Assembly: GCA_020722085.1 (NCBI GenBank)
Contig: DYLN01000022.1
Coordinates: forward strand, 1-33,664
Direction: 5' to 3'
DNA length: 33,664 nucleotides
Source of the DNA: Melioribacter roseus
GTDB lineage: Bacteria; Bacteroidota; Ignavibacteria; Ignavibacteriales; Melioribacteraceae
Positions 5,289 to 33,110 of the stretch are shown piece by piece. Below the pieces are notes generated by a model, which saw only the letters and a program-made list of their open reading frames with translations, was not told the origin of the DNA and did not search any database. Numbering within the stretch: position 1 is the first letter of the stretch; each line of letters starts with the position of its first letter. The translations under genes were made by a program, and so were the position numbers.

Positions 5289-5912
5289 TTATTTACCTTC
5301 TTTAACGCTGTCTGCCCTTTCAAAACCCAAAGCGACTGAGTTAATACAATATCTCAATCCGGTAGGATCAGGACCATCATCAAAAACATGTCCTAAATGC
5401 GAGCCGCACTTTGCGCACAAAACTTCTGTACGTACCATTCCGTAACTTGTATCTCTTTGATAAACTACCGCACTGTCACTAATTGGCTTAAAATAACTAG
5501 GCCAGCCGCAGCCGGAGTCAAATTTTGTGTCAGACTTAAACAATTCATTGCCGCAGGCTGCACAAACGTAAGTTCCGTTTTCGTTTAGTTTATAGTACTT
5601 GCCTGTAAACGGTCGTTCAGTTCCTTTTTCACGCAAAACATGAAATTGTTCGGGAGTTAATTCTTTCTTCCATTCCTCTTCAGATTTTACAACTTTAAAT
5701 TTCATTTTAACTCCTTTCTTTTGAATTGTCTTGTTGGAATCAACTTGCTCCGCCGTATTTTGGCGAGCCTGCTCCGCCGTACTTTGGCGAGCTTGCTCCA
5801 CCGGATTTTGGCGAGCTTGCTCCACCGGATCTAAGTGAGCACTTTGTAGGTAAAAAGAAACGGATATCAGTAATATTAGACCTGCTGCAATTAATATCAA
5901 TTTTGTTTTCAT
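5289..5912 (-). CDS. msrB: peptide-methionine (R)-S-oxide reductase MsrB with N-terminal signal anchor
   Basis: MsrB reduces methionine-R-sulfoxide in proteins. The catalytic domain is the last 138 aa. Counting from its internal Met, it has zinc cysteines 48/51 (CAAC) and 97/100 (CAKC), [14 protein letters not shown] and catalytic C120 in RYCINSVAL. Before it lies a hydrophobic segment ([14 protein letters not shown]) and a linker of 8-residue EQARQNPV-like repeats, all in one open frame, so the long form (207 aa) should be membrane-anchored or exported. I prefer the start at 5912 over 5969, which adds 19 unlikely residues and lacks a ribosome binding site. A strong AAAGGAG precedes an internal ATG at 5705, which would give a cytosolic 138-aa enzyme. 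Confidence 0.88.
5703..5717 (-). promoter_or_regulatory. strong internal ribosome binding site and ATG in msrB
   Basis: On the minus strand the sequence reads AAAGGAG, five bases, then ATG at 5705-5703, followed by [12 protein letters not shown], which is the usual start of the MsrB catalytic domain. It is a better initiation site than the upstream ATG at 5912. It suggests a second, cytosolic product, or that this is the only functional start. Confidence 0.55.
5744..5839 (-). repeat. four tandem 24-bp repeats within msrB
   Basis: Units at 5744-5767, 5768-5791, 5792-5815 and 5816-5839. The first three are near identical (CTTGCTCC...TTTTGGCGAG type) and the fourth is degenerate. As 24 is a multiple of three, each unit encodes eight residues ([16 protein letters not shown] and similar) and copy-number change would keep the frame. 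The repeats form the linker between the membrane anchor and the catalytic domain. Confidence 0.85.
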
Positions 5913-5981
5913 TTTCAGCCTGCTGTTTTTTGTTGGGCGTAACTGAATAAATAAAATAGAAAAATGCAATGAAGAAATTCA

Positions 5982-6021
5982 ATCCGCGAATTTTCGCGGA
6001 TAATTCGCGGATATTAGCGGA
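5982..6021. repeat. palindromic ATCCGCGAA-type repeat cluster
   Basis: A near-perfect palindrome (stem ATCCGCGAA and TTCGCGGAT, 5982-6001) is followed by AATTCGCGGAT and ATTAGCGGAT. It fills the gap between the SPOR gene stop and the msrB start region. The AATTCGCGG word also occurs inside the two MITE-like elements, so this may be a related fragment. It could fold in RNA, but lacks a T-run for a standard terminator. Confidence 0.5.
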
Positions 6022-9733: not shown

Positions 9734-10153
9734 ATGCTTACTGAATTCGGGAAAATTTTCGTCTTTGTTCTGCTCGCAGTTGTATTTGTAGCAATTGTTA
9801 TTTTTTTCGCTAAGCTTATCAGACCAAGTAGAATTACCCACGAAAAAACTAAAATTTACGAATGCGGAGAAGATGCAAAGGGGTCACCGTGGGTTAAGTT
9901 TAACATAAGATTTTACGTAGTAGCCTTAATTTTTTTGATTTTTGATGTTGAAGTTGTTCTATTATTTCCATGGGCTTTAAGTTATAAAGAATACGGCACT
10001 TACGGCTTTTTAGCCGGAATAATTTTTTTATTAATACTCGGTCTGGGCATGGCTTACGAATGGAGAAAGGGCGATTTGGAATGGGCACGTCCCAAAATTA
10101 CTCCTCCCGAATTAAAAAATACTTCTAATAAAACAGAAAAAATTAACAGCTAA
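9734..10153 (+). CDS. nuoA: NADH-quinone oxidoreductase subunit A
   Basis: NuoA of 139 aa, a three-helix membrane subunit of complex I. The typical [20 protein letters not shown] loop and the [17 protein letters not shown] helix are present. The C-terminus has a hydrophilic tail. It is first of the operon and is followed by nuoB after 17 bp. No clear Shine-Dalgarno sequence lies before the ATG (a T-rich stretch), as is frequent in Bacteroidota. Confidence 0.96.
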
Positions 10154-10170
10154 AAAATCCGAAAAAATTA

Positions 10171-10662
10171 ATGGGACTTTTAGATAAAGAATTTTCAGAA
10201 GATAACATTGTAATAGCTAAAGTAGATGATTTAATGAACTGGGCTAGGTTATCTTCAATATGGCAGCTTGGATTTGGACTTGCTTGCTGTGCTATTGAAA
10301 TGATGGCTACTTCAGCTTCACATTATGATTTTGACAGATTCGGAGTAATGCCGCGCAACACGCCCCGTCAAGCAGATGCGATTATTATCTCAGGAACGGT
10401 AACATTAAAAATGGCTTTGAGAATTAAGAGATTGTACGAGCAAATGCCGGATCCGAAATACATTATTTCAATGGGAAGCTGTTCAAATTGCGGCGGTCCT
10501 TACTGGGAACATGGTTATCACGTACTTAAAGGCGTTGATCGCGTTATTCCTGTAGATGTTTATGTACCGGGCTGTCCACCGCGCCCCGAGGCTTTGTTAG
10601 AAGGATTATTAAAACTACAAGAAAAAATTAGAAACGAATCGTTAAGAAAAAAATCCGCATGA
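10171..10662 (+). CDS. nuoB: NADH-quinone oxidoreductase subunit B
   Basis: NuoB of 163 aa holds cluster N2, the last Fe-S centre before quinone. Ligand cysteines are C39/C40 (LACCAIEMM), C104 (GSCSNCGG) and C135 ([15 protein letters not shown]). It lies at the interface of the peripheral and membrane arms. Its stop overlaps the nuoC start by ATGA, indicating translational coupling. Confidence 0.97.
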
Positions 10663-11189
10663 AAACTGCCGACGAAATTTATGAGTTGTTAAAAAAAGAA
10701 TTTGGCGAAGCTATTTTAAGTTTAGATAAAGAAACACCAGTTGAACCAATCATTTCAATAGCTCCTCTTCACACTAATAAAATTGCGCTTTTTCTACGCG
10801 ATAACGAAGAATTAAAATTCGACAGCCTTATGTGTCTTTCCGGCGTAGACGATGCCAACGGAGAAAAAATAAAAGAGGAAGACGGTTCAGAAACAATTAA
10901 AGGTGGTACACTCAGCGTTTATTATCATCTATACTCTATACCGCTAAAACACAAGATAACTTTGAAAGCTTCGGTGCCGAGAGAAAATCCCGAGATAGAA
11001 TCTGTTGAATCAATTTGGCGCACAGCGGATTGGCATGAACGCGAAGCGTATGATTTAATAGGAATAAAATTCTTAAATCATCCCGACTTAAGAAGAATTT
11101 TAATGCCGTACGATTGGGAAGCCGGTCATCCGTTAAGAAAAGATTACAAGAATCCGGAATTTTACCAAGGAATGAAAGTTCCCTATTAG
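10659..11189 (+). CDS. nuoC: NADH-quinone oxidoreductase subunit C
   Basis: NuoC (30-kDa subunit) of 176 aa, not fused to NuoD. The diagnostic block [20 protein letters not shown]...[15 protein letters not shown] is present (here with [10 protein letters not shown]). It is part of the connecting module of the peripheral arm. It overlaps nuoB by four bases. Downstream, a 4HB cassette separates it from nuoD by 443 bp, whereas other genes of this operon are 40 bp apart or less. Confidence 0.95.
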
Positions 11190-11628
11190 ACACAAGATTT
11201 TTAGATTTGAGATAGGAGATTATCAAATGCATAATTTTAAGGAATTAATAGTTTGGCAAAAATCGAGAAAATTTGTTAAACAAATATATAATCTTGTTAA
11301 AAATTTCACTGATGATGAAAAGTCTGCTTTAACATTACAAATGAAAAAAGCGGCGATTTCAATTCCTTCCAACGTTGCTGAAGGAACTGGCCGCCGAACC
11401 GACAAAAATTTTATAAGGTCTTTAGATGTCGCAAATGGTTCTGCTTATGAATTGCAAACACAATTATACCTATCTTACGATTTAGGGTTTATATCATAAG
11501 TAGATTTAGATAATTATTTATCAGAGATATCCGAAATCGAGAAACTTATTTATGGATTTAAAACAAAATTAAAAACCGATCTAAAATCTTGAGTCTAATG
11601 TCTAAAATCTTAAATCTAAAATCTATCC
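11190..11628 (+). mobile_element. 4HB/IVP cassette with TCTAAAATCT-rich flanks inserted in the nuo operon
   Basis: The four-helix-bundle gene is bordered by related inverted sequences: left AGATTTTTAGA (11195-11205, within GACACAAGATTTTTAGATT) and right GATCTAAAATCTTGAGTC (11579-11595), plus two further direct TCTAAAATCT copies at 11601-11610 and 11615-11624. The right arm overlaps the end of the reading frame. The whole unit sits between nuoC and nuoD, which are normally adjacent. The borders suggest a non-autonomous mobile cassette. This is an inference, because no transposase or target duplication is seen. Confidence 0.5.
11227..11592 (+). pseudogene. four-helix-bundle protein (S23/IVP family), interrupted by an in-frame stop
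   Basis: The first 90 codons match the 23S rRNA intervening-sequence (S23) four-helix-bundle family: FKELIVWQKSRKFVKQIY, then MKKAAISIPSNVAEGTGRR and ANGSAYELQTQLYLSYDLGFIS. A TAA at 11497-11499 ends the frame, but translation continues in the same frame for 30 codons (VDLDNYLSEISEIEKLIYGF ...) to a TGA at 11590-11592. That tail looks like the family's fourth helix. The full product would be about 121 aa, the usual size. A single nonsense change therefore appears to have broken the gene. The function of free-standing members is not known; relatives include the DGR accessory protein Avd. Confidence 0.8.
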
Positions 11629-11632
11629 AGTA

Positions 11633-12748
11633 ATGGCTTTAAAAACCGAACATATGGTACTAAACATGGGTCCGCAGCACCCATCTACTCACGGTGTTTT
11701 GCGGCTCGAGCTTGAACTTGAAGGTGAGTTAATCAAAAATGTAATACCTCACATCGGTTATTTGCATAGATGTTTTGAAAAGCATGCCGAAGCAATGACT
11801 TACCCACAGGTAATTCCTTATACCGATCGAATGGATTATTTAGCTTCCATGTATAACAATTTCGGTTATGTTGTAACAGTAGAAAAATTACTTGGAATCG
11901 AAGTACCAGAACGAGTTCAATATATTCGCGTAATTATGGGAGAACTGCAGAGAATTGCATCCCACATGGTCGCACTCGGAACTTACGGTCTGGACCTCGG
12001 TGCTTTTACACCTTTCCTTTATTTATTCCGTGACCGCGAAAAAATATTAAGCCTTTTTGAAATGACATGCGGAGCAAGGTTGCTCTACAACTATATGTGG
12101 GTTGGCGGACTTTCTCACGACATTCATCCTGATTTCATAAGACTAACAAAAGAATTCGTTAATTATTATAAACCCAATATCAAAGAACTCAATGATCTAT
12201 TAACATTCAATAAAATTTTTATAGAAAGAACAGCAAATATCGGCGTCTTACCTCTGGATACGGCGATCAACTATGGTATAACAGGCCCAAATCTTAGAGG
12301 AAGCGGCTTAAAGTTTGACTTACGCAAAGACGACCCGTATTCTATTTATGACCGATTTGATTTTGATATTCCTGTAGGAAAGGGATTAATGGGAACTGTT
12401 GGCGACTGCTGGGATCGTTATTATGTACGCGTTTTGGAGATGGAACAAAGTTTAAGAATTATTGAGCAGGCTATTGACCAAATACCTGAAGGTAATGTTC
12501 AGTCTGCTATACCTAAACGGATTAAACCGCCAAAGGGAACCGTTTACGGACGCGTAGAAAATCCAAGAGGTGAACTTGGATATTTTATAATCAGCGACGG
12601 CTCAACAAGTCCTTTTAGAGTAAAAGTACGCGCACCTTCATTTGTTAATCTTTCTGTGTTGGGAGAATTATGCAAAGGACATCTGGTTTCGGATGTTGTT
12701 GCAATACTCGGCAGTATTGATATAGTTTTAGGAGAAGTGGATAGGTAA
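11633..12748 (+). CDS. nuoD: NADH-quinone oxidoreductase subunit D
   Basis: NuoD (49-kDa subunit) of 371 aa, which with NuoB forms the quinone site. [18 protein letters not shown] is the hallmark N-terminus with the conserved HPSTHG loop. [14 protein letters not shown] and the C-terminal [13 protein letters not shown] are also typical. The start lies 4 bp past the 4HB cassette edge and has only a weak ribosome binding site. Its upstream leader may therefore have been altered by the insertion. The stop overlaps the nuoH start by one base (TAATG). Confidence 0.97.
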
Positions 12749-13821
12749 TGTACGAGATTCTAAATAATATATTCGGCAATCAAGCTGTTGCATGGATAAT
12801 TGCTGCAGCACTTCCATTATTTGTTTTTATTCTTCCATTTGCTCTTTTTGCTGTTTGGCTTGAACGCAAAGTTTCTGCACACATGCAGGATCGTCTCGGT
12901 CCGATGAGAGTCGGTTGGCACGGCGTACTACAGACTATTGCAGATATACTGAAGCTTATCCAAAAAGAAGATATTATTCCTGCCGAAGCAGATAAAAAAT
13001 TATTTAATTTAGCACCGATTCTTGTTTTTGCCGGAAGCTATGCTGCATTTGCCGCAATCCCCTTTTCGAGCAAGTATATTGGTTCAAATGCAGAAGTAGG
13101 AATTTTTTACATCATTGCTGTTTCAAGTTTCGTTGTTGCCGGAATATTAATGGGCGGCTGGGCATCTAACAACAAATACGCACTTCTCGGTGCAATGCGT
13201 TCCGCAGCTCAAATAGTCAGCTATGAAATTCCAAGTGCAATTGTGATTCTAACAATGGTTATGCTTACCGGCACTTTAAGTCTCGATAAATTCAGTCAAA
13301 TCCAGACTGCTTATTTCTGGAACTGGTTTATTTTGGGTGGACCCGGAGACGGACTTACAAAATTTTTATTAATTCCTTTTATGATTATCGGTTTCACTAT
13401 TCTTTACATTAGCACCTTAGCCGAAGTAAACAGAACACCTTTTGATATTCCAGAAGCAGAATCTGAATTAGTTGCCGGATACCATACTGAATATTCAGGA
13501 ATGAAATTCGCTATGTTTTTCCTCGCAGAATACGGCAATATGTTTGCTGTTTCTGCCGTAATTACATTGCTTTTCTTCGGAGGTTATCAATCACCTTTTG
13601 GCTATCTTGGCAATTCCTTTAATATTCCATGGCTTGTTCCAATTGAACAAGTTTTCTGGTTTACGTTCAAAGGAATCATTTTTGTATTTGTTCAAATGTG
13701 GTTAAGATGGACTTTACCGCGCCTCCGCGTAGACCAGCTAATGCATGTCTGCTGGAAATTTTTAATTCCTTATTCATTTGTAAATTTAATTATAGTTGGA
13801 ATAATTACTTTATTCCGTTAA
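12748..13821 (+). CDS. nuoH: NADH-quinone oxidoreductase subunit H
   Basis: NuoH of 357 aa, the membrane subunit forming much of the quinone chamber and the start of the proton path. It has the conserved ERKVSAHMQDRLGPMRVGW block, LIQKEDIIPAEAD, and AEVNRTPFDIPEAESELVAG. Eight membrane segments are expected. It is translationally coupled with nuoD and followed by nuoI after 7 bp. Confidence 0.97.
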   Translation: MYEILNNIFGNQAVAWIIAAALPLFVFILPFALFAVWLERKVSAHMQDRLGPMRVGWHGVLQTIADILKLIQKEDIIPAEADKKLFNLAPILVFAGSYAAFAAIPFSSKYIGSNAEVGIFYIIAVSSFVVAGILMGGWASNNKYALLGAMRSAAQIVSYEIPSAIVILTMVMLTGTLSLDKFSQIQTAYFWNWFILGGPGDGLTKFLLIPFMIIGFTILYISTLAEVNRTPFDIPEAESELVAGYHTEYSGMKFAMFFLAEYGNMFAVSAVITLLFFGGYQSPFGYLGNSFNIPWLVPIEQVFWFTFKGIIFVFVQMWLRWTLPRLRVDQLMHVCWKFLIPYSFVNLIIVGIITLFR

Positions 13822-13828
13822 GTGAAAT

Positions 13829-14428
13829 ATGAACGGTTTGAAACAATATTTTAAAGATACATGGCTGGGAATCTGGACGGTTCTCGTAGGTATGAAAGTT
13901 ACATTCAAACATTTGTTTGTACCTGCCGTTACAATCCAGTACCCGGATGTAAGAGTAAAACTGCCCGAACGAGCTCGAAACCGACTATACGTAAATATGG
14001 ATGACTGCATCGGATGCGATCAGTGTGCACGCGCATGTCCGGTAAGCTGCATTGAAATTGAAACCGTAAAAGCCGTACCCGGCGAAGATCTTGGAACTAC
14101 TTCAAACGGTAAAAAGAAAGCCCTTTGGGTAACAAAATTTGATATTGATATTGCTAAATGCTGCTACTGTCAGCTATGCGTTTTTCCGTGTCCTACCGAA
14201 TGCATTTATATGACTGATGTTTATGAATTTTCAGAATACGAAAGACAAAATCTTGTATATAAATTTGCTACTCTTACAGAAGCAGAAGTAGAAGAAAAGA
14301 AGAAAAATTTTGAGAAGTTCACTGCAGAAAAGGAAGCTCAGAAAGCCGCTGCTCGACAAAATTCGTCAGCGTCTGCGACTGCGAAAGCCAAAGCAGAACA
14401 GAAACCCGAACAACCAAAAACCGAGTAA
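13829..14428 (+). CDS. nuoI: NADH-quinone oxidoreductase subunit I
   Basis: NuoI of 199 aa binds clusters N6a and N6b. Two CxxCxxCxxxC motifs are present: C60/63/66/70 (CIGCDQCARAC) and C111/114/117/121 (CYCQLCVFPC region). After about residue 150 there is a charged, Ala/Lys/Glu-rich tail of roughly 45 residues that is not needed for cluster binding and looks disordered. In a complex I without NuoEFG, NuoI lies near the likely electron entry side. Confidence 0.96.
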   Translation: MNGLKQYFKDTWLGIWTVLVGMKVTFKHLFVPAVTIQYPDVRVKLPERARNRLYVNMDDCIGCDQCARACPVSCIEIETVKAVPGEDLGTTSNGKKKALWVTKFDIDIAKCCYCQLCVFPCPTECIYMTDVYEFSEYERQNLVYKFATLTEAEVEEKKKNFEKFTAEKEAQKAAARQNSSASATAKAKAEQKPEQPKTE

Positions 14429-14434
14429 CAATAG

Positions 14435-14932
14435 ATGAGTTTATACGATATAATATTTTACTTATTCGCCGCTATTACTATTCTTTCGGGATTTATTGTA
14501 GTAACTTCAAAAAATATAGTTTATTCTGCTTTCTCTTTACTTTTTACATTTTTCGGTGTCGCCGGTATTTACGTACTTCTCGGTGCCGACTTCATTGCTA
14601 TAGTACAAATTCTGGTTTATGTCGGCGGAATTCTTATTCTGCTGCTCTTCGGTGTGATGCTCACAAACAAAATTACAAATGTTGATATTAGAACCGGCAC
14701 AATTCATGTTTTACCCGGAGCCGTTGCTGTTGGAGTTTTAATGGGACTGCTTCTTTCGGCAATGGTCTGGACAGAATGGAAGACACAGCCGTCGGAAACA
14801 CCGGTGACTACAACTGTAACTTTAGGAAGATTATTAATAACCGATTATATATTAATTTTTGAACTGCTTGGGATACTGCTTTTAATTGCATTAATAGGAG
14901 CAGCTTCCATTGCAAGAAGAGAACAAGAATAA
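14435..14932 (+). CDS. nuoJ: NADH-quinone oxidoreductase subunit J
   Basis: NuoJ of 165 aa, with about five membrane helices. The segment YVLLGADFIAIVQILVYVGG contains the conserved glycine- and valine-rich helix (the pi-bulge helix of the E-channel), followed by ILLLFGVMLTN. It lies 6 bp after nuoI and 18 bp before nuoK. Confidence 0.96.
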   Translation: MSLYDIIFYLFAAITILSGFIVVTSKNIVYSAFSLLFTFFGVAGIYVLLGADFIAIVQILVYVGGILILLLFGVMLTNKITNVDIRTGTIHVLPGAVAVGVLMGLLLSAMVWTEWKTQPSETPVTTTVTLGRLLITDYILIFELLGILLLIALIGAASIARREQE

Positions 14933-14950
14933 AAAATAAATTATAGAATT

Positions 14951-15262
14951 ATGATCCATGTAGGTTTAACACATTTTCTCGTTGTAAGTGCAATTCTGTT
15001 TTCCTTGGGAATTTATGCAATCGTAACACGAAAAAATGCCATCATGGTTTTGATGGGAGTAGAATTAATTCTCAATTCAGCTAACATAAATTTTGTTGCT
15101 TTTTCAAAGTTCGGAAATTTAGGGTTAGGCGGACAATTAATTGCATTGTTTATCATAATTCTTGCAGCGGCAGAAGCTGCCGTTGCGCTTGCAATTGTGC
15201 TCAACATCTATAAAACATTCACAAACGTCAATATTGATGAAATCGATAACTTAAAAGAATAA
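14951..15262 (+). CDS. nuoK: NADH-quinone oxidoreductase subunit K
   Basis: NuoK of 103 aa with three membrane helices, homologous to MrpC. Conserved features are MGVELILNSANINFVAFS, with the proton-pathway glutamate of helix 2, and LAAAEAAVALAIVLNIY, with the second glutamate in helix 3. The next gene, nuoL, starts 2 bp after its stop. Confidence 0.97.
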   Translation: MIHVGLTHFLVVSAILFSLGIYAIVTRKNAIMVLMGVELILNSANINFVAFSKFGNLGLGGQLIALFIIILAAAEAAVALAIVLNIYKTFTNVNIDEIDNLKE

Positions 15263-15264
15263 AA

Positions 15265-17355
15265 ATGACTGAATACACGATCATACTGCTATCGGTAATT
15301 GCATTATTTATTCCGCTGCTTGGCTTTATAATTACTTTGTTTTCCGGCAAAAAATTTCCTAAGGTCTACTGGTTTGAAGTCGGCGTTACAGGTTTGGGAT
15401 TGTTAATTTCAATTATTATCTGCTTTGCGAAATTAGCTTTTTATAACAATCAAAATATTATCTCTGGCTTTCAATGGTTTTCAATTGGCGCAGCGGATTC
15501 CCCTTCCCGATATTTTATTGAACTGGGAATAAAAATCGACAATGTTGCTGCGTTGATGCTTCTCGTTGTCTACATAATAAGCTTTGTTGTACACTTATTC
15601 TCGGTCGAATATATGCACGGGGATAAAAGGTATAACCGCTACTTCGCTTATTTAGGCATATTTACTTTTTCCATGCTCGGAATTGTTGTTACACATAATT
15701 TTTTGATGATGTACATTTTCTGGGAATTAGTAGGTCTTTCATCATATTTATTAATTGGTTTTTGGTTCGAAAAAAAATCTGCTTCCGATGCAGCCAAAAA
15801 AGCTTTTCTTGTTAACCGGATAGGCGATATAGGAATGTTCATCGGTATTTTAATTCTTTTCTTCACATATAAAACTTTTACATTCGATTCAATTTTTAGT
15901 CAAATTTCACAAGGACATCTGCCTTTCGACAGTACTGCATGGTTAACCGCAGCAGGCATTTTAGTATTTATGGGTGCGGTTGGAAAATCGGCTCAGTTCC
16001 CTCTCCATGTCTGGCTGCCCGATGCAATGGAAGGCCCTACTCCAGTTAGTGCTTTGATTCATGCAGCTACAATGGTTGCAGCCGGCGTTTATCTACTGGT
16101 GAGAATTTTTGTAATGCTTACCGCAGATGCAATGCTTACGATTGCTATAGTCGGTGCTTTTACATCTTTTATTTCTGCAACAATTGCACTCACACAAAAC
16201 GATATCAAAAAAGTTTTAGCTTACTCTACCGTAAGCCAGCTAGGATATATGGTTATGTCGGTCGGCGTTGGTGCTTATGCGTTTGCTTTCTTCCATCTTG
16301 TTACTCATGCATTTTTTAAGGCAAATTTATTTTTAGGTTCCGGCTCGGTTATTCATGCAATGCATCATGAACAGGATATCCGCAATATGGGCGGACTAAG
16401 GAAGAAAATGCCGTTGACTTATCTTACATTTTTAATTTCATCGTTAGCTATCTCTGGAATCCCGTTGACTTCCGGGTTCTTGAGTAAAGACGGAATTCTT
16501 GCCGGCACGCTTGCATTCGGAAAATTAACAGGTCATTGGCTCATTCCGGTTTTTGGTTTTACGGTAGCATTGATGACAGCCTTTTATATGTTCCGATTGG
16601 TAATTCTCACTTTTCACGGTGAACCAAGAGATCGGGAAAAATATGAACATGCCCACGAATCCAAGTTTGTAATGGCTGCACCGCTTGTTATACTGGCTGT
16701 GCTCTCGGTGTTTATCTGGTATACGCCAAATCCATTTTCACCCGATGCCGGTTGGTTTTTATCAAGCTGGGTTAAAACTCCACACACAGTTGTTCCAGCA
16801 GAATCGCAATTCAATTTTATGATTTATAACGCTGCCGGTGAAAGTGCACTTCACGGGGAAATTGTTCATTCGGAACTATACACTGAAACGATTCACTGGG
16901 CACATTATCCCGCAATGCTGTTGTCTCTAATTTTAGCGGGACTTGGAATTCTAATTGCATACGTTATGTATCAATGGAAAAAGATAGATGTTGACAAACT
17001 TACTGAGAAGCTCAAACCGCTTTATAATCTTTCACTCAATAAATGGTATCTTGACGAATTGTATCACGCCACTGCGGTAGCCGGAGTAATCGGTTTGAGC
17101 AAAGTTTTAGCCTGGTTCGATAATATTATTGTTGACGGCATTGTTAACGGTGCAGGGTATTTAACCAAACTAACCTCGAAGCTAAGTGGTCTTTTTGATA
17201 TTTACGTTGTAGATGGATTGGTAAACTTCTCTGCATTTTTCAGCGGGTTTATCGGACTTTCATTTAAGAGAATTCAAACCGGCAAAGTTCAGACATACGT
17301 TGTCTTTGTTGTTTTTTCAGTAATCATTTTGCTTTTAATTTTTAAGTCATTTTAA
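15265..17355 (+). CDS. nuoL: NADH-quinone oxidoreductase subunit L
   Basis: NuoL of 696 aa, the distal antiporter-like proton-pumping subunit. Characteristic blocks are MYIFWELVGLSSYLLIGFW with the TM5 glutamate, FPLHVWLPDAMEGPTPVSAL, and the lateral-helix region near the C-terminus (TSKLSGLFDIYVVDGLVNF). About 16 membrane segments are expected. Length is at the upper end of normal (E. coli 613), with the extra sequence around residues 490-560. Confidence 0.97.
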   Translation: MTEYTIILLSVIALFIPLLGFIITLFSGKKFPKVYWFEVGVTGLGLLISIIICFAKLAFYNNQNIISGFQWFSIGAADSPSRYFIELGIKIDNVAALMLLVVYIISFVVHLFSVEYMHGDKRYNRYFAYLGIFTFSMLGIVVTHNFLMMYIFWELVGLSSYLLIGFWFEKKSASDAAKKAFLVNRIGDIGMFIGILILFFTYKTFTFDSIFSQISQGHLPFDSTAWLTAAGILVFMGAVGKSAQFPLHVWLPDAMEGPTPVSALIHAATMVAAGVYLLVRIFVMLTADAMLTIAIVGAFTSFISATIALTQNDIKKVLAYSTVSQLGYMVMSVGVGAYAFAFFHLVTHAFFKANLFLGSGSVIHAMHHEQDIRNMGGLRKKMPLTYLTFLISSLAISGIPLTSGFLSKDGILAGTLAFGKLTGHWLIPVFGFTVALMTAFYMFRLVILTFHGEPRDREKYEHAHESKFVMAAPLVILAVLSVFIWYTPNPFSPDAGWFLSSWVKTPHTVVPAESQFNFMIYNAAGESALHGEIVHSELYTETIHWAHYPAMLLSLILAGLGILIAYVMYQWKKIDVDKLTEKLKPLYNLSLNKWYLDELYHATAVAGVIGLSKVLAWFDNIIVDGIVNGAGYLTKLTSKLSGLFDIYVVDGLVNFSAFFSGFIGLSFKRIQTGKVQTYVVFVVFSVIILLLIFKSF

Positions 17356-17395
17356 GAAAGATCAAAAAAGTTTTATAAACCATAGGTAGTTGATA

Positions 17396-18997
17396 ATGAA
17401 CGGATTCCCGATACTAACTTTTATAACCTTTCTCCCGATTTTAGGGATGATTGTTATTTTGTTCCTGCCAAAAGACCAGTATAGATCAATCAGGTATACT
17501 GCTTTGATTGTTACTGCAATTCAGGTATTACTTGCTGTTGTATTACTGGCGAATTACAATTATTCGGCAGCCGGCATTTTTGATGCAAAATCATTTCAGT
17601 TTATCGAAAAATTCAGATGGATTGAAATCAGCGGAATTTCCTGGCTCGGCACAATAAAAATTGATTACTTTCTCGGCATAGATGGTATTAGCATGCCGCT
17701 GCTTCTTCTTACGGCTATTATCACTTTAATAGCAACAATCTCATCATGGAATATTGAGAAAGCCGTCAAAGGTTATTTCATAATGTTTCTGCTGCTTGAT
17801 ACCGGCATGATGGGAGTTTTTGTTGCGCTTGATTTTTTCCTCTTCTACATTTTCTGGGAATTGATGCTTCTTCCTATGTACTTTTTAATTGGTATTTGGG
17901 GCGGACCAAGAAAAGAATATGCAGCTATTAAGTTTTTTATTTACACTTTGCTCGGAAGCGTATTTATTCTTTTGGTTATGATTGGACTTTATTTTAGTGC
18001 ACAGGAAACTTTAGCTGACGGATCAAAGGTATTTACATTTAACTTGTTAGCTCTTATGAATCCTCAAAACTTCACCGCAACAGGAATTCTTTCACCGATT
18101 AATCCGCATAATCTAAGGCTTATTGCTTACATTGCACTTTTTGCCGGATTCGCTATTAAAATACCGATGTTCCCTTTTCATACCTGGCTTCCTGATGCTC
18201 ACGTTGAAGCGCCTACACCAATAAGTGTAATACTTGCCGGTGTTCTATTAAAAATGGGAACTTACGGAATACTCAGGGTCAGCTATCCCATTTTTCCAGA
18301 GATTACTCGAGAACTGATGTGGTATATTGGCTTATTCGGAATGATCAACATTGTATACGGTGCTCTTGTTGCGATGGCTCAAAAAGATTTTAAGAAACTT
18401 ATAGCTTATTCTTCTATCTCACACATGGGTTATGTTCTGCTTGGTATGGCTTCTTTAAGTACAACCGGAGTAAATGGTGCGGTACTTCAAATGTTCAACC
18501 ATGGCACTATCACCGCAATGCTCTTTTTAATTGTGGGCGTTGTTTACGACAGAGCTCATACAAGAGGGCTCAACGATTTTGGAGGACTGGCAGTACAGAT
18601 GCCTGCTTACACCGGATTTGTTACTGTAGCTTTTTTTGCTGCAATCGGACTGCCAAGCTTAAGCGGATTTATTTCGGAAGCATTAGTATTTATCGGCGCT
18701 TTCGGCACAGATTCAATCAGAACGTTAACAATCATTTCAACACTTGGAATTTTACTTGGAGCAGGCTACATGCTGTGGACACTGCAAAGAGTTTTTCTCG
18801 GCAAACTGAATGAAAAATGGACTTCCCTTCCGGATTTGGAACCGAGAGAATATGTAATGTTTGTCCCCTTAACAGCAATAATCATTTTCCTTGGTGTTTA
18901 TCCGTCTGCTATGCTCGACATAATGAATACTTCCGTGAATACACTTGTAAATGTTGTTAACAATGGAATTCATACAATAACTTTAGGCGGATTATAA
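17396..18997 (+). CDS. nuoM: NADH-quinone oxidoreductase subunit M
   Basis: NuoM of 533 aa, an antiporter-like proton-pumping subunit. It has FYIFWELMLLPMYFLIGIWG with the TM5 glutamate and FPFHTWLPDAHVEAPTPISV. I start at the ATG at 17396, giving MNGFPILTF, rather than an in-frame TTG six bases upstream. The AGGT at 17384-17387 is better spaced for the ATG. The gap from nuoL is 40 bp, the widest in the operon apart from the 4HB cassette. Confidence 0.96.
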   Translation: MNGFPILTFITFLPILGMIVILFLPKDQYRSIRYTALIVTAIQVLLAVVLLANYNYSAAGIFDAKSFQFIEKFRWIEISGISWLGTIKIDYFLGIDGISMPLLLLTAIITLIATISSWNIEKAVKGYFIMFLLLDTGMMGVFVALDFFLFYIFWELMLLPMYFLIGIWGGPRKEYAAIKFFIYTLLGSVFILLVMIGLYFSAQETLADGSKVFTFNLLALMNPQNFTATGILSPINPHNLRLIAYIALFAGFAIKIPMFPFHTWLPDAHVEAPTPISVILAGVLLKMGTYGILRVSYPIFPEITRELMWYIGLFGMINIVYGALVAMAQKDFKKLIAYSSISHMGYVLLGMASLSTTGVNGAVLQMFNHGTITAMLFLIVGVVYDRAHTRGLNDFGGLAVQMPAYTGFVTVAFFAAIGLPSLSGFISEALVFIGAFGTDSIRTLTIISTLGILLGAGYMLWTLQRVFLGKLNEKWTSLPDLEPREYVMFVPLTAIIIFLGVYPSAMLDIMNTSVNTLVNVVNNGIHTITLGGL

Positions 18998-19003
18998 TAA
19001 AGA

Positions 19004-20518
19004 ATGGAACTTAGTAATCTATCGCACTCACTGAACCTTTTATTACCCGAATTGACTTTGTCAATTGCTCTGCTCGTATTGGTTTTGTTTGATTTAATCT
19101 TTCATCACGATAAAAAGATTATTTCATACGTTGCTTTAATTGGTCTGCTTGCAACCGGATTTTTTGTGATCAACCAATTCTCATTAAGCGGATTTGCGTT
19201 CTCTACGGGAAATGAATCTTATAGAAATTTCGGGATGATTACTATCGATTCATTCGGCAGTTTCTTTAAGCTGATAGTTATTGTCGCATCCGTCATTATT
19301 GTTTTCTTTTCACTTTCTTCCGATGAAATCAAAAAAACATCCGAACGAATCGGCGAATACTATGCATTAATATTTGGAATGATACTCGGAATGCTTTTTA
19401 TGATTTCCGCTACAGATCTGATTTTAATTTATCTTTCTGTTGAATTGTTGTCTTTATCTTCTTACGTGCTTGCCGGTTTCACAAAATTAAGAGAAAGAAA
19501 CAGCGAAGCTTCACTTAAATATATGATTTACGGCTCAGTATCCTCCGGTCTAATGTTATTCGGCATCTCACTTGTTTACGGCATGACAGGGACCACAAAT
19601 CTTTACATGATTAATTCTCTGATTCAAATCCCGCATTTGAATTTGTTTACTTTCTCATTTGCTATGATTTTAATTTTTGCAGGAATAGGTTATAAAATTT
19701 CCTCTGCACCGTTCCATTTCTGGACACCTGATGTTTATGAAGGTGCACCAATTACAATAACTGCATTTCTTTCTGTCGCCAGCAAAGCTGCCGGTTTTGC
19801 ATTATTAATTCGATTTGTAAAAATTACTTTTGTCTCTTACATAGATACATCCGGCTTCTGGCAGTTAATCCATGTCTTCGATTGGAAAACATTGATTGTC
19901 GTAATATCAATTTTTACAATGACACTCGGGAATTTTTCGGCACTTTGGCAGGACAATCTAAAAAGAATGCTGGCATATTCGAGCATTGCTCATGCAGGAT
20001 ACATAATGCTGGGACTAGCTGTTCTTTCAAATCAAGGTTTAACAGCTATGTTAATTTATTTTGCTGTTTATCTGCTGATGAACCTCGGCGCATTTCTTGT
20101 TGTAATGCTGATTGCAAATAAGATCAACTCAGAGGAAATTGATGACTATGACGGTCTCGGTTATTCCTCTCCTTTCCTTGCTGCTTCGCTTGCAATATTT
20201 TTAATTTCGCTTACCGGTTTGCCTCCCACTGCTGGATTTATCGGCAAGCTCTATTTATTCGTAGCTCTTGTAGATGCAAACATGATTGGCTTGGCAGTTG
20301 TTGCACTTCTTAATACTGTTGTCTCTCTCTATTATTACGTGAGAGTACTAAAACATATGTATCTCACAAAACCAGAAACTGCGATACCGGAAATAAAAAC
20401 ATCCAAACCAAATACAATTCTTGTTTTGGTTCTTTTAATACCAATTTTCATTTTTGGAATATATTTTACGCCGCTGGTAGATTTAGCAAAAGGATGTATT
20501 ACTATTTTGGGGTTGTAA
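19004..20518 (+). CDS. nuoN: NADH-quinone oxidoreductase subunit N
   Basis: NuoN of 504 aa, the third antiporter-like subunit and last gene of the cluster. It has LIYLSVELLSLSSYVLAGF with the TM5 glutamate, and SAPFHFWTPDVYEGAPITIT, which is diagnostic for NuoN. About 14 membrane segments are expected. It lies 6 bp after nuoM. No NuoE, F or G gene follows, so this locus encodes only the 11 core subunits of the Q and P modules. Confidence 0.97.
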   Translation: MELSNLSHSLNLLLPELTLSIALLVLVLFDLIFHHDKKIISYVALIGLLATGFFVINQFSLSGFAFSTGNESYRNFGMITIDSFGSFFKLIVIVASVIIVFFSLSSDEIKKTSERIGEYYALIFGMILGMLFMISATDLILIYLSVELLSLSSYVLAGFTKLRERNSEASLKYMIYGSVSSGLMLFGISLVYGMTGTTNLYMINSLIQIPHLNLFTFSFAMILIFAGIGYKISSAPFHFWTPDVYEGAPITITAFLSVASKAAGFALLIRFVKITFVSYIDTSGFWQLIHVFDWKTLIVVISIFTMTLGNFSALWQDNLKRMLAYSSIAHAGYIMLGLAVLSNQGLTAMLIYFAVYLLMNLGAFLVVMLIANKINSEEIDDYDGLGYSSPFLAASLAIFLISLTGLPPTAGFIGKLYLFVALVDANMIGLAVVALLNTVVSLYYYVRVLKHMYLTKPETAIPEIKTSKPNTILVLVLLIPIFIFGIYFTPLVDLAKGCITILGL

Positions 20519-29690: not shown

Positions 29691-31256
29691 ATGAAAAATA
29701 AATTATTTAATAGCTATACACTTTCCGCCGTAATAATTATGTTCTTACTTATTATTGCTGTTCCCGGAAGCATTTACAGTCAGATAGATCCAAATGGTGC
29801 CTCCACGGGAACAATAAATAATATACCTTCTGCAATTCCTGGAAAACCAACGCTGCAAGAGATAGGTGACGCAGTTGGACACAACATGATCGCCACAAAT
29901 ATCGTGTGGACACTTATCACAGGTTTTTTAGTTATGTTCATGCAAGCAGGTTTTGCAATGGTCGAAACCGGCTTCACAAGAGCAAAAAATGTTGCTCATA
30001 CAATGGGAATGAATTTCTTGATTTATGGAATCGGTGTTTTAGGATTCTGGTTATGCGGCTTTGCCCTAATGTTCGGGGGTGTAGGAGGAATAGCTAATCT
30101 AGGCGGAACGCCGGGATTAACAAACGAACTTACCATCACCATCTTCGGAAAGACCTTTGGTTTAGCCGGCTTCAAAGGATTCTTTTTAAATCCGCAAGTT
30201 TACGACGTAGGGATTTTTACTCTCTTTCTGTTTCAAATGGTTTTTATGGACACAACAGCAACAATCCCTACGGGTGCTATGGCAGAACGTTGGAAGTTTG
30301 CCTCCTTCATTGTTTACGGCTTTTTTATATCGATGGTTGTCTATCCCCTTTTCGGCAACTGGGTTTGGGGCGGTGGATGGCTTTCTCAGCTAGGAATTAA
30401 CTTCGGTCTTGGTCACGGACATGTTGATTTTGCCGGTTCATCTGTAGTTCATGAAGTTGGCGGCGTTGCCGCATTAGCTGGTGCTATTGTCCTTGGTCCT
30501 AGGATTGGTAAATACAACAAAGACGGATCGTCAAATGCTATACCTGGGCATAACATACCGATGGCAATAATCGGGACATTCATTTTAGCATTCGGCTGGT
30601 TTGGTTTTAATCCAGGTTCTACTCTTTCCGGGAATGATCTAAGAATTGGAATTATTGCCACCAACACAATGTTAGCCTCGGCAAGCGGAGCTTTCGCAGC
30701 AACTATCTATATGTGGCTTAAATACGGAAAACCCGATCCAAGTATGATGGCAAACGGTATGCTCGCCGGACTTGTTGCAATCACAGCCCCCTGTGCATTT
30801 GTCAACGCCCCAGTGGCTGTTTTAATAGGAGCAGTAGCCGGTATCTTAGTTGTAATCTCGGTTTTCTTTTTAGATCACAAAATGAAAATTGACGACCCTG
30901 TTGGAGCCGTAGCTGTTCACGGCGTTAACGGCATTGGGGGAATAATATCACTTGGACTTTTTGCGGACGGAACTTACGGTAACGGCTGGAATGGAGTTGC
31001 CGGGAACGTAAGAGGTTTATTCTATGGAGATGCAGGCCAATTTGTAGCAGAATTAATAGGAGCAGCAGTTTGCTTTGTTTTTGTTTTTACTACAATGTAC
31101 TTATTCTTCAAATTATCCGATAAGATAATCGGTCTGCGTGTTAGTGAGAAAGCGGAAATTGAGGGTCTTGATATGCCTGAGATGGGAATAAATGGTTATG
31201 AAAAGGCAATACCTGGAGGTACCGAATATTTCCCTTCAGTGGAAAAAAGTCAGTGA
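29691..31256 (+). CDS. amt: ammonium transporter (Amt), first copy
   Basis: Amt/MEP/Rh channel of 521 aa that takes up ammonium across the inner membrane. A cleavable-looking signal (about residues 1-30, ending IYSQ) and a 40-residue outside segment precede the 11 membrane segments. The pore twin histidines are H254 (DFAGSSVVHEVGG) and H410 (VGAVAVHGVNG), and DFAG supplies the recruitment-site aspartate. The C-terminal tail has LRVSEKAEIEGLDMPEMG, the usual PII-interaction region. It is about 80 aa longer than the second copy. The ribosome binding site is GGGAG. No glnK/glnB gene is nearby. Confidence 0.95.
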   Translation: MKNKLFNSYTLSAVIIMFLLIIAVPGSIYSQIDPNGASTGTINNIPSAIPGKPTLQEIGDAVGHNMIATNIVWTLITGFLVMFMQAGFAMVETGFTRAKNVAHTMGMNFLIYGIGVLGFWLCGFALMFGGVGGIANLGGTPGLTNELTITIFGKTFGLAGFKGFFLNPQVYDVGIFTLFLFQMVFMDTTATIPTGAMAERWKFASFIVYGFFISMVVYPLFGNWVWGGGWLSQLGINFGLGHGHVDFAGSSVVHEVGGVAALAGAIVLGPRIGKYNKDGSSNAIPGHNIPMAIIGTFILAFGWFGFNPGSTLSGNDLRIGIIATNTMLASASGAFAATIYMWLKYGKPDPSMMANGMLAGLVAITAPCAFVNAPVAVLIGAVAGILVVISVFFLDHKMKIDDPVGAVAVHGVNGIGGIISLGLFADGTYGNGWNGVAGNVRGLFYGDAGQFVAELIGAAVCFVFVFTTMYLFFKLSDKIIGLRVSEKAEIEGLDMPEMGINGYEKAIPGGTEYFPSVEKSQ

Positions 31257-31277
31257 TTCTCTTAAAAAATAAATTGA

Positions 31278-31377
31278 GAGGCTGCTGCAAAAGTTATTAC
31301 CCGATAAAATTTTTCCCTTGCAAATGCTTAAAGCAATACTAAATACTTCTATTTGGTTATTACTTTTGTGGAGCCTC
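31278..31377. repeat. 100-bp interval with inverted GAGGCT...CAAAAGT ends
   Basis: The left end GAGGCTGCTGCAAAAGTTAT (31278-31297) is echoed in inverse by the right end ATTACTTTTGTGGAGCCTC (31359-31377). The ends resemble the GAGGCTGT..CAAAAGT termini common in insertion sequences (from memory). It may be a MITE or, lying just after amt, a structured transcription end. Confidence 0.4.
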
Positions 31378-31403
31378 TTTCTATTAATCCTCCCAAAAGC
31401 ATA

Positions 31404-31450
31404 CACAACTACAGTTGTGCTGAGTGGAACTGAAGAACTCTTAATGTCGA
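31404..31450. repeat. small palindrome and REP-like GTGCTGAGTGGAACTGAAG remnant
   Basis: CACAACT-AC-AGTTGTG (31404-31419) is a perfect 7-bp stem. It runs into GTGCTGAGTGGAACTGAAGA, which resembles the GTCATGCTGAGYG-type repetitive extragenic sequences of many environmental bacteria. Likeness is by eye from memory only. It lies in the 528-bp gap between the two amt genes, where no ORF is convincing. Confidence 0.3.
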
Positions 31451-31548
31451 AAAACAAAATTTTACTTCTCCAATAGGTCTTTCAAAAACATTCCTGCTAA
31501 GTTTTTTTACAGCTAATGACCAAGGTGAAAAAAAAATTTAAATACATC

Positions 31549-31578
31549 TTGACAAAAATAGAAATAAATTTATATTTG
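31549..31578 (+). promoter_or_regulatory. promoter P2 upstream of the second amt
   Basis: TTGACA (31549-31554) and TATATTTG (31571-31578), with 19 bp between TTG and TA as in Bacteroidota housekeeping promoters. Downstream AATTTTCC-N11-GGAAAATT (about 31585-31611) forms a dyad that contains ATTATTTAGG. The leader to the ATG is about 200 nt. Confidence 0.6.
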
Positions 31579-31784
31579 CAAAGTAATTTTCCTTAATTAT
31601 TTAGGAAAATTATTAGATTAACCACATTTATTAAGGGTATGAATAAATGCTAAAAACTTGTGTTTGCATAACGGATATTCATATACAAACTTTTTGCGTT
31701 ATTAAATAAAATTTTCAAGACAAAAAATTTTTAGAATTTCTATTCACTCACATAACTATATCAATAAAAAAGGAGGACTGTGTT

Positions 31785-33110
31785 ATGAAATACCAGAAAA
31801 AGCTCATTTTATTTTTTCTATTTTTCCCCGCATTGCTTTTGGCTCAAGAAGCGGCGCCAACTGTTGAAAGTAATGCAGCAAAGATTGCGGAAGTTCAAAC
31901 ACATGCAGATTATGTTTGGACACTTATTGCTGCATTCCTTGTATTTTTTATGCAAGCCGGTTTTGCTATGGTGGAAGCCGGACTAACGCGAAGTAAAAAT
32001 ACGGTAAATATATTAATGAAAAATCTTATGGACTTTGCTGTCGGCTCAATTGTATTTTGGGCAATTGGTTTCGGAATAATGTTTGGTATAAACACAACAG
32101 GCTGGTTCGGAACATCGGGTTTTCTCTTCTCCGATTTTACAGTCGATGGCGACCAATGGGTTTTCGCATTTTGGATGTTTCAAGTAGTCTTTGCCGCAAC
32201 TTCAGCTACAATTGTTTCCGGTGCAATGGCAGAAAGAACGAAATTTATTTCGTATTTGATTTATTCGGCAGTTATTTCTGCTTTTATATATCCAGTGTTC
32301 GGGTCGTGGGCATGGGGTGGTTTATTCCATGGCGGTGGTTGGCTGGAAAAATTAGGATTTATCGATTTCGCCGGTTCAACCGTTGTCCACTCAATCGGCG
32401 GTTGGTGTTCGTTAGCAGGCGCCATGATTCTTGGGGCAAGAATCGGCAAATACACAAAAGATGGTAAAGTTAAGGCTATACCGGGTCATAACTTGACCTT
32501 GGCTGCACTTGGCACATTTATCCTTTGGTTTGGCTGGTTTGGATTTAACCCCGGCAGCACAACTGCAGCAAACAAAGATATTGCCCTTATTGCTGTCAAT
32601 ACAAATTTAGCAGGTGCAGCAGGTGCATGTGCTGCTATGTTAACCGCATGGATAATTTTTAAGAAACCTGAAGCTACAATGACTTTCAATGGTGCTTTGG
32701 CTGGCTTAGTCGCAATTACTGCCGGTTGTGCAAACGTATCGCCGGCAAGTTCTGTCATAATCGGTGCAACAGCTGGCATCCTTGTAGTATTAAGCGTTTT
32801 ATTCTTTGAAAAGAAAGCAAAAATTGATGACCCGGTAGGAGCCATTTCAGTACATGGTGTATGCGGAGCATGGGGTACTTTGCTTGCCGGCGTCTTTGAT
32901 AAAAACGGTTTTTCATTGTCGGTCGTAGGAGTGCAGGCACTTGGAATAATTGCGGCATTTATCTGGGCTTTTTCGACTGCTTATATACTATTTAAAATTC
33001 TTCAAAAAACAGTGGGATTGCGTGTTAAACCGGAAGAAGAATTGGAAGGATTGGACGTTGGAGAACACGGCTTAGAATGCTATCCAGAATTTGAAAAAGT
33101 ATCACCTTAA
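31785..33110 (+). CDS. amt: ammonium transporter (Amt), second copy
   Basis: Amt channel of 441 aa with a signal peptide (KLILFFLFFPALLLAQ) and 11 membrane segments. Twin histidines are H202 (DFAGSTVVHSIGG) and H357 (VGAISVHGVCG). Shared blocks with the first copy, such as FMQAGFAMVE.G.TR.KN, show they are paralogues, but the loops differ widely, so duplication was not recent. The tail has GLRVKPEEELEGLDVGEHG, the PII-interaction motif. The ribosome binding site AGGAGG is eight bases before the ATG. A porin gene follows after 56 bp. Confidence 0.96.
   Translation: MKYQKKLILFFLFFPALLLAQEAAPTVESNAAKIAEVQTHADYVWTLIAAFLVFFMQAGFAMVEAGLTRSKNTVNILMKNLMDFAVGSIVFWAIGFGIMFGINTTGWFGTSGFLFSDFTVDGDQWVFAFWMFQVVFAATSATIVSGAMAERTKFISYLIYSAVISAFIYPVFGSWAWGGLFHGGGWLEKLGFIDFAGSTVVHSIGGWCSLAGAMILGARIGKYTKDGKVKAIPGHNLTLAALGTFILWFGWFGFNPGSTTAANKDIALIAVNTNLAGAAGACAAMLTAWIIFKKPEATMTFNGALAGLVAITAGCANVSPASSVIIGATAGILVVLSVLFFEKKAKIDDPVGAISVHGVCGAWGTLLAGVFDKNGFSLSVVGVQALGIIAAFIWAFSTAYILFKILQKTVGLRVKPEEELEGLDVGEHGLECYPEFEKVSP

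Follow-up and report, generated by a model that had tools for sequence, protein, structure and literature searches.

A heptad-armed four-helix-bundle gene between nuoC and nuoD of Melioribacter roseus, probably a decayed copy of a mobile cassette that resembles rRNA intervening sequences

Introduction

Why does a gene for a four-helix-bundle (4HB) protein of the S23/IVP family lie between nuoC and nuoD of Melioribacter roseus, and what are the short repeats at its sides? Solitary genes annotated as "four helix bundle protein" are common: in the order to which this genome belongs, PF05635 has 274 matches over 38 genomes (M. roseus included) and is present in 37 of them. The window, as we call the whole stretch of DNA that was analysed, comprises 33,664 nucleotides of contig DYLN01000022.1. 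A first reading of its letters, here called the original prediction, held that the 4HB gene belongs to a mobile cassette, bordered by an array of the word TCTAAAATCT, that spared the operon into which it inserted.

Several parts of the subject are already known, namely the protein family and its folds, the intervening sequences (IVSs) of rRNA genes, the heptamers of the Coxiella IVS, the STRRs of cyanobacteria and the heptamer pairs of Xanthomonas. The available part of Warrier et al. (2016; PMC4990558) describes IVSs with complementary ends, an S23 frame in the loop and cutting by RNase III, and, for the Coxiella IVS, tandem GACAGAT heptamers before the frame in a copy number that varies among strains. 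Insertions in the 16S and 23S rRNA genes of CPR bacteria carry the same domain, according to the accessible text of PMC11270868. GGGAATC repeats have been reported in inverted pairs from Xanthomonas, and STRR-like heptamers as free arrays (accessible part of PMC4692102). Among the papers listed from the open-licence PMC literature, as far as their text was accessible, we found none that joins inverted heptad arrays with solitary 4HB genes.

Results

The nuo cassette has a broken gene and two unequal arms

That a 4HB-family gene lies within the nuo operon is borne out (Table 1): its product matches PF05635 at 121.8 bits when the internal stop is read through and at 108.8 bits for the 90-aa frame, against a cut-off of 33.8. 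The original prediction had passed over the state of the gene, which is not intact; because of the TAA at codon 91, the open frame is only 90 aa long. The gene sits between nuoC and nuoD and not in a 23S rRNA gene, and both neighbours are open frames, in agreement with the idea of an insertion sparing the operon. Profile matches to the solved folds 2gsc (3e-37) and 2rld (7e-17) point to the fold of the protein; 2gsc is an S23 protein whose genus, like that of XCC0516, we take to be Xanthomonas. The nuo genes, which apart from nuoC and nuoD we name by their sequences, appear to run in the order A, B, C, (4HB), D, H, I, J, K, L, M, N from 9734 to 20518, with E, F and G apparently absent from between D and H. 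Elsewhere in the window, by eye, tandem repeats lie near the N-terminus of an MsrB-like protein (minus strand, 5740-5982), and two ammonium-transporter-like genes stand in tandem (29691-33110).

Table 1. Features of the nuoC-nuoD junction in the window
Feature	Coordinates	Strand	Remarks
nuoC (host gene, upstream)	10659..11189	+	open frame, PF00329 match
Left arm, degenerate heptads TAGACAC AAGATTT TTAGATTT GAGATAG GAGATTA	11187..11222	+	third unit 8 nt
4HB gene, PF05635 (23S_rRNA_IVP)	11227..11592	+	full length only via stop read-through; Pfam E 1.8e-35
In-frame TAA, codon 91	11497..11499	+	breaks 4HB gene in M. roseus genome
Right arm, heptad array, reverse complement of left-type word	11578..11627	+	lag-7 identity 29/43 in 11575-11624
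nuoD (host gene, downstream)	11633..12748	+	open frame, 371 aa; Pfam match

The left heptad array opens with the TAG stop of nuoC (11187-11189), and the last codons of the 4HB gene overlap the right one. The direct copies of TCTAAAATCT on the right, predicted from the letters, are real: three are exact (11580, 11601 and 11615) and a fourth, at 11608, has one mismatch. None of 2000 dinucleotide shuffles attained the lag-7 identity of the right array over 11575-11624 (Table 1), and in a ranking of the window's 50-nt stretches by lag 7 the first 12 all begin at 11574-11585. Read on the opposite strand, the words of this arm are TAGATTT, AAGATTT, TAGACAT and TAGACTC. The left arm is weaker, with 13 of 25 positions identical at lag 7 in 11190-11221. 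Its element AGATTTTTAGA (11195-11205) is longer by one T than the reverse complement of TCTAAAATCT, and the two arms match modestly in inverted orientation, with a score of 26 that 42 of 2000 shuffles and 4 of 3144 other pieces of the window also attain. With at most one mismatch allowed, the window contains TCTAAAATCT 9 times, a number close to chance, since 6.35 are expected and 13 of 100 shuffles reach 9; the significance of the arms comes from their periodicity and from comparison with other copies, not from the count of TCTAAAATCT. The TCTAAAATCT copies are parts of a degenerate 7-nt array, and the left flank is its weaker inverted counterpart.

Other 4HB genes share the architecture, each with a word of its own

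The PF05635 profile has 10 matches in the M. roseus genome (G000), which correspond to about nine 4HB genes because two of the matches are pieces of one gene. A pattern built from 11580-11609 and allowing up to three mismatches matched once in the 3.64-Mb genome, in the window itself, and the same pattern read backwards, our control, likewise matched once in 3.64 Mb. By eye, TCTAAAATCT borders are absent from the other 4HB genes; most of these genes have instead a word of their own that is inverted on the two sides, among them GAGTCAG, GAGTGTA, AAATTAC and GTCATTN, and one gene (L009) has no arms. One common border sequence was therefore rejected, as the words differ by copy. The part of the original prediction that made TCTAAAATCT the common border falls, while its array-bordered mobile cassette survives in a stronger form, as private heptad words inverted on two sides.

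The same arrangement was found well beyond this genome. In the order-level set (95 of 105 genes, the 10 with short flanks or partial matches being left out), a left arm scored a median of 30 against the reverse complement of its own right arm and 18 against mismatched partners; 60 of the 95 genes exceeded the 95th percentile of mismatched pairs and 33 the 99th, and in direct orientation 12 of 95 exceeded the 95th percentile of their own control. Among named loci, mostly from Bacteroidota, 53 of 84 cassettes passed the arm test and 13 of 84 did so in direct orientation; these loci are the best 80 of at least 587 confirmed candidates, with 3 of 87 genes left out. Loci on cyanobacterial plasmids gave 8 of 14, and 1 of 14 in direct orientation. 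Across loci L001-L243, an arm score of 28 or more was reached by 105 of 173 4HB ORFs, the remaining 68 (about four in ten) falling below it, against 28 of 875 other ORFs; with those non-4HB ORFs set aside that have flanks in common with a 4HB gene, the count was 11 of 611 (odds ratio 84).

The arms are periodic as well as inverted. Compared with 373 flanks of other genes, they show a marked period of 7 (and of 14 and 21), and 7 was the best lag over both arms in 63 of 97 genes of the order, 66 of 85 at named loci and 12 of 14 on cyanobacterial plasmids. The window copy fits this class of 7-nt inverted arrays, with a strong right arm and a modest left one. The architecture common across copies is thus one 4HB gene between two inverted heptad arrays, and it recurs in the window's order, in named Bacteroidota, on cyanobacterial plasmids and in one 23S rRNA IVS. 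Exceptions occur: an arm pair is lacking at L009 and at L140, and L176 has at most a left array.

Two side observations belong here. L009 and a gene at C2:414430-414830 of the same-genus genome G001 are divergent, armless PF05635 genes beside a NUDIX-like gene, kept in both species of the genus, and are perhaps domesticated copies. At L020 (1-560), part of the beginning of the downstream gene (MEEKMNIPFLDLK) is repeated to the left of the cassette, as if insertion had led to the duplication of some of the target.

The nuoC-nuoD junction is patchily occupied

The original prediction had proposed a search for empty nuoC-nuoD sites in relatives, and many relatives have no 4HB gene there. At the 52 nuoC-nuoD loci (52 of 58 genomes were read at the junction, with relics and arms judged by eye), we found 10 related cassettes, one 4HB gene of another type, four relics (L047, L050, L195 and L201) and 37 junctions with none; in L063, no nuoC match lies next to nuoD, and a trace may be present in L064. 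Internal stops break three of the related cassettes, the window's own and those of L058 and L059. The one of another type, in G027 (L196 444-809), is a distant PF05635 relative (E 6e-11) with other arms, by eye, and marks the junction as a recurrent target. A NuoD tree (51 of the 52 rows, L050 being absent, with bootstrap not settled) shows patchy occupancy only.

G001 has no cassette at nuoC-nuoD. At seven further sites compared between G000 and G001, L002, L003, L006 and L008 are filled in G000 only, with short repeat-like stretches remaining in G001 at L006 and L008; L007 and L009 are filled in both, and L004 is unclear. Five junctions, nuoC-nuoD included, are thus filled in G000 and without a 4HB gene in G001. 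At L007, where both species hold an armed cassette, the arms are altered on both sides.

Patchiness of this kind could also arise if the 4HB gene were an old resident of the nuo operon, inherited vertically and lost many times, its arms being slippage-prone spacer DNA. The relics at the junction, the likeness of several nuo 4HB proteins to each other (up to 81%) and the purifying selection seen where the gene is intact would fit such a history. We nevertheless hold it to be improbable: a distant type with other arms occupies the same junction in G027, arms match privately and in inverted orientation where flanks of other genes do so rarely (the 11 of 611 given above), and empty sites exist on plasmids at 96-99% identity, as described below. 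The nuo 4HB proteins also form no supported clade; FastTree did not resolve them as one, their most recent common ancestor holding 78 of 186 leaves with support 0.66.

Plasmid pairs show filled and empty sites

The clearest comparison comes from conjugative plasmids of Nostocales. The site of L236 is empty in L246, L247 and L248, whose identity to L236 is 98-99% across 1 kb on the left and 96-97% across 700 nt on the right. The sequence of the empty site is AAAAAGTAATTAACAAAT; in the filled one, arms and gene are bounded by AAAAAGTAAT and GTAATTAACAAAT, with GTAAT on both sides as a 5-nt duplication, so that the insert consists of arms and gene and nothing else. Two further plasmid sites, L234/L253 compared with L250, L251, L252 and L254, and L242 compared with L234 and L251, likewise differ by arms and gene, with edges that are less clean and a flank identity lower than at the L236 site. 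The empty sites at 1 (that of L236), 2 and 2b hold no array, and L249 is a decayed copy. These DNA-level empty sites come from cyanobacterial plasmids and not from the window's own lineage. Together with the 37 unoccupied nuoC-nuoD loci, these pairs, whose flanks are near-identical, support the predicted mobility in one respect: the heptad-armed 4HB class is present or absent as a unit at a given site. At the plasmid sites we infer gain rather than precise loss.

By eye, site 1 has a flank duplication of 5 nt, site 2 one of about 4 and site 2b one of 3, and a gene-less insertion in L253 has none; as these lengths differ among sites, they give no clean transposase signature. That gene-less element, of about 185 nt, lies inside the L253 4HB gene (1310-1500) and combines the arm words of the L236 cassette with a common hairpin core. 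L255 and L256 contain it as well, and 43 plasmid records match its sequence at 103 places in all, not every one of which was read. Trichormus variabilis ATCC 29413 carries a 4HB cassette on its plasmid C.

Might the arrays have come first, as STRR-like target sites in whose heptads the 4HB gene lands? The gene-less element with the same arms, sitting inside a 4HB gene, speaks for such an order of events, as do free arrays without a 4HB gene in cyanobacteria: 50-kb stretches of two plasmids (100 kb together) held two arrays with no matching inverted partner, and the sole 4HB gene in them had no array over threshold. Against this stand the array-free empty sites, the prevalence of inverted arms where an array split by insertion would leave direct ones, and the rarity of strong arrays away from 4HB genes. 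A 400-kb sample of two complete relatives contained one strong array, inside a 422-aa ORF and away from 4HB genes, and the single 4HB gene in that sample had no array over the strict threshold, yet its flanks matched in inverted orientation with a score of 43. We give this possibility very little credence.

Gene and arms travel together, and the two arms change together

Arm words were common to 0.7% of 7489 pairs at the lowest protein similarity and to 51.5% of 33 pairs at the highest, the test having been run without pairs of similar host-flank DNA (18,634 of 18,915 pairs kept). After removal of four of those 33 that were judged by protein comparison to lie at the same site, 15 of the 29 most-alike pairs have the same arm words at clearly different host sites. 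Over all pairs, protein similarity and arm-word similarity correlate weakly (rho 0.07; 1 of 200 Mantel permutations as high). The array-free empty sites and the same words at different sites together identify the arms as the ends of the unit, moving with the gene. The proteins of L080, from the window's order, and L236, from the Trichormus plasmid, are identical at 73% of aligned residues and have the left word CAGAATTCAG in common, a likeness that suggests, at the level of sequence, a transfer between phyla.

At a single site, the two arms of one cassette resemble each other more than they resemble those of other cassettes, with match scores of 33.5 within and 20 between cassettes at nuoC-nuoD (p 3e-4) and of 35 and 17.5 at fadB-fadA (p 6e-5); the omf-abc site (n=4) showed no such excess (p 0.31). 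The two arms therefore change together, staying alike though words differ between cassettes, as shown at two of the three sites.

The protein itself is under purifying selection: dN/dS lies at 0.06-0.22 in 18 of the 19 pairs with a value and at 0.86 for the near-identical pair L236/L243. No value was obtained for the remaining 6 of the 25 pairs, and in several pairs dS approaches saturation.

Cassettes lie within operons and may form an RNA stem

Among neighbours within 400 nt, the 4HB gene is co-directional with the upstream one in 143 of 147 cases and with the downstream one in 123 of 130. TAG is the stop codon of the upstream gene in 65 of 143 cases, compared with 77 of 386 for other co-directional genes (p 2e-8), an enrichment from which we conclude that the array often supplies this stop. 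A thiolase starts downstream of 11 Bacteroidota cassettes; we take it to be fadA, and the site to be fadB-fadA, from the sequence. On cyanobacterial plasmids the hosts include CRISPR operons, with the arrangements cas6-4HB-cas4 and cas10-4HB-cmr3 (L230, L233 and L235). Cassettes in cas operons fit, and may explain, the appearance of 23S rRNA IVP among the CRISPR-linked domains of Altae-Tran et al. (2023; PMC10910872, in its accessible part). Hosts in Flavobacterium columnare are the genes for guanylate kinase and nicotinate-nucleotide adenylyltransferase (available text of PMC5524665).

One case outside the order links the cassettes to rRNA IVSs. The 4HB gene of Azospirillum lipoferum 4B plasmid AZO_p2 (L289) lies within a 23S rRNA gene (LSU match, whole 1.7 kb) and has heptad arms, TCAGAGGACGGATGACAGAGGACGGAGGACAG being inverted on the right (arm score 47), with lag-7 identity at 20 of 29 right-arm positions and at 23 of 54 positions of the measured left stretch. 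For the window transcript, an only moderately stable fold is predicted (z -2.25; 1 of 100 shuffles folds as well), in which the arms pair around the 4HB frame, and the orthologue L048 has a predicted fold with z -6.41. Arm pairs contain no excess of G-U over A-C (101 against 92, p 0.56) and so give no indication of selection on the RNA stem itself.

A stem of this kind might serve the host as an inbuilt RNase III site through which nuoC and nuoD are tuned independently of each other. The predicted closing stem, the position inside an operon and the excision of rRNA IVSs by RNase III (PMC4990558, in its available part) are all compatible with a beneficial mRNA module, whereas its absence from the nuo operon in 37 of 52 loci, the stops in the window, L058 and L059 copies and the lack of a G-U excess in the arms make such a role distinctly improbable.

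Discussion

By its predicted fold and its gene, the window cassette seems to be laid out like an IVS placed in a protein operon, although by location it is not a 23S rRNA IVS. With the 23S rRNA IVSs of Coxiella, Leptospira and others it has in common the protein family, a sporadic distribution and a frame in the loop of a stem formed by complementary ends (predicted for the window), and heptads are found both in the arms of the Azospirillum IVS and in the Coxiella IVS (PMC4990558, available text). It differs in standing between protein genes and in having inverted heptad arms whose word varies by cassette. We think it likely that the window holds a decayed copy of a mobile, IVS-like cassette and that rRNA IVSs represent one class of its sites.

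How such a cassette would move is a matter for a more tentative model, which we consider possible rather than probable in its details and in which trimming by RNase III, binding of the arms by the 4HB protein and a trans-acting insertion enzyme are combined. The minimal unit would be one S23/IVP 4HB gene with an array of a 7-nt word on either side, the two arrays being inverted relative to each other. Placed between co-directional genes of an operon, it would be transcribed with its host; in the RNA the arms are predicted to pair into a stem whose loop contains the 4HB frame, and processing by RNase III could limit the damage to the host message. The 4HB protein may bind its own arms and bring the ends together, and insertion would then occur at the level of DNA through an enzyme acting in trans.

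Within the cassettes there is no known recombinase, and candidates for the trans-acting enzyme have to be weighed. A Y1 (HUH, RAYT-like) transposase could read the arms, as for REP, with the 4HB protein as passenger or helper. The numbers of Y1_Tnp and 4HB matches correlate over the 38 genomes of the order (rho 0.42, p 0.008, uncorrected for genome size or kinship), and G004 has neither. Such an enzyme seems unlikely all the same: G016 combines 31 4HB matches with one of Y1_Tnp, four of the five genomes without a Y1_Tnp match (G005, G006, G007 and G028) have 4HB genes, and the arm words do not amount to one sequence for a single enzyme to recognise.

A reverse transcriptase in trans can be envisaged by analogy with Avd of diversity-generating retroelements, Avd and 4HB proteins having the same four-helix fold. 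The window protein indeed has a weak profile match to the bAvd family (1.4e-5, below its cut-off), and the strong co-directional bias with host operons also speaks for it. Retro-mobility is disfavoured, and in our view very improbable, because RVT_1, the polymerase family searched, has no match in 26 of the 38 genomes, namely that of M. roseus and 25 of the other 37, a difference from diversity-generating retroelements. These RVT_1-free genomes hold 201 of the 274 PF05635 matches, including the 31 of G016 and 19 in G036.

Cyanobacterial STRRs are degenerate 7-nt words, usually reported as free arrays. The flanks of 4HB genes at cyanobacterial plasmid loci are period-7 arrays, and they and the right arm of the window are degenerate tandem heptanucleotides in the sense of STRRs, the named STRR classes being a separate matter; the inverted, gene-bearing arrangement differs from the usual free array, and free arrays exist in the cyanobacterial plasmids here too. 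MITEs and other short dispersed repeats of Nostocales are short, have inverted ends and occur in many copies, much as the gene-less element does, whereas the 4HB cassette carries a gene that is under purifying selection. Nor do the cassettes look like a classical DDE IS or MITE, for they have no fixed terminal inverted repeat and no target duplication of fixed length. The intergenic TAACTGA direct heptamers of Beggiatoaceae and others, spread over scattered phyla, differ in using one fixed word, mostly before start codons (PMC4679880, accessible text); the terms "four helix" and "S23" do not occur in the main text of that paper.

There is a broader proposal, on which our own judgment falls a little short of even: that there exists a cosmopolitan minimal mobile element, consisting of a 4HB gene between inverted arrays of a self-chosen 7-nt word, and that 23S rRNA IVSs, the solitary S23/4HB genes of operons and many cyanobacterial STRR heptads all represent it, at different sites and in different stages of decay. 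Such an element would move as DNA with neither a transposase nor a reverse transcriptase of its own, and its arms would be rewritten together, so that its ends would be set by repetition and mirror symmetry and not by a fixed sequence.

If this reading of the cassette is true, solitary 4HB genes, the heptamers known from cyanobacteria and from Xanthomonas, and the question of where 23S rRNA IVSs come from would become one subject. A role for the 4HB protein, the binding of its own arms, would become testable, and movement with neither a fixed end sequence nor a known recombinase would become a concrete problem, with model strains at hand.
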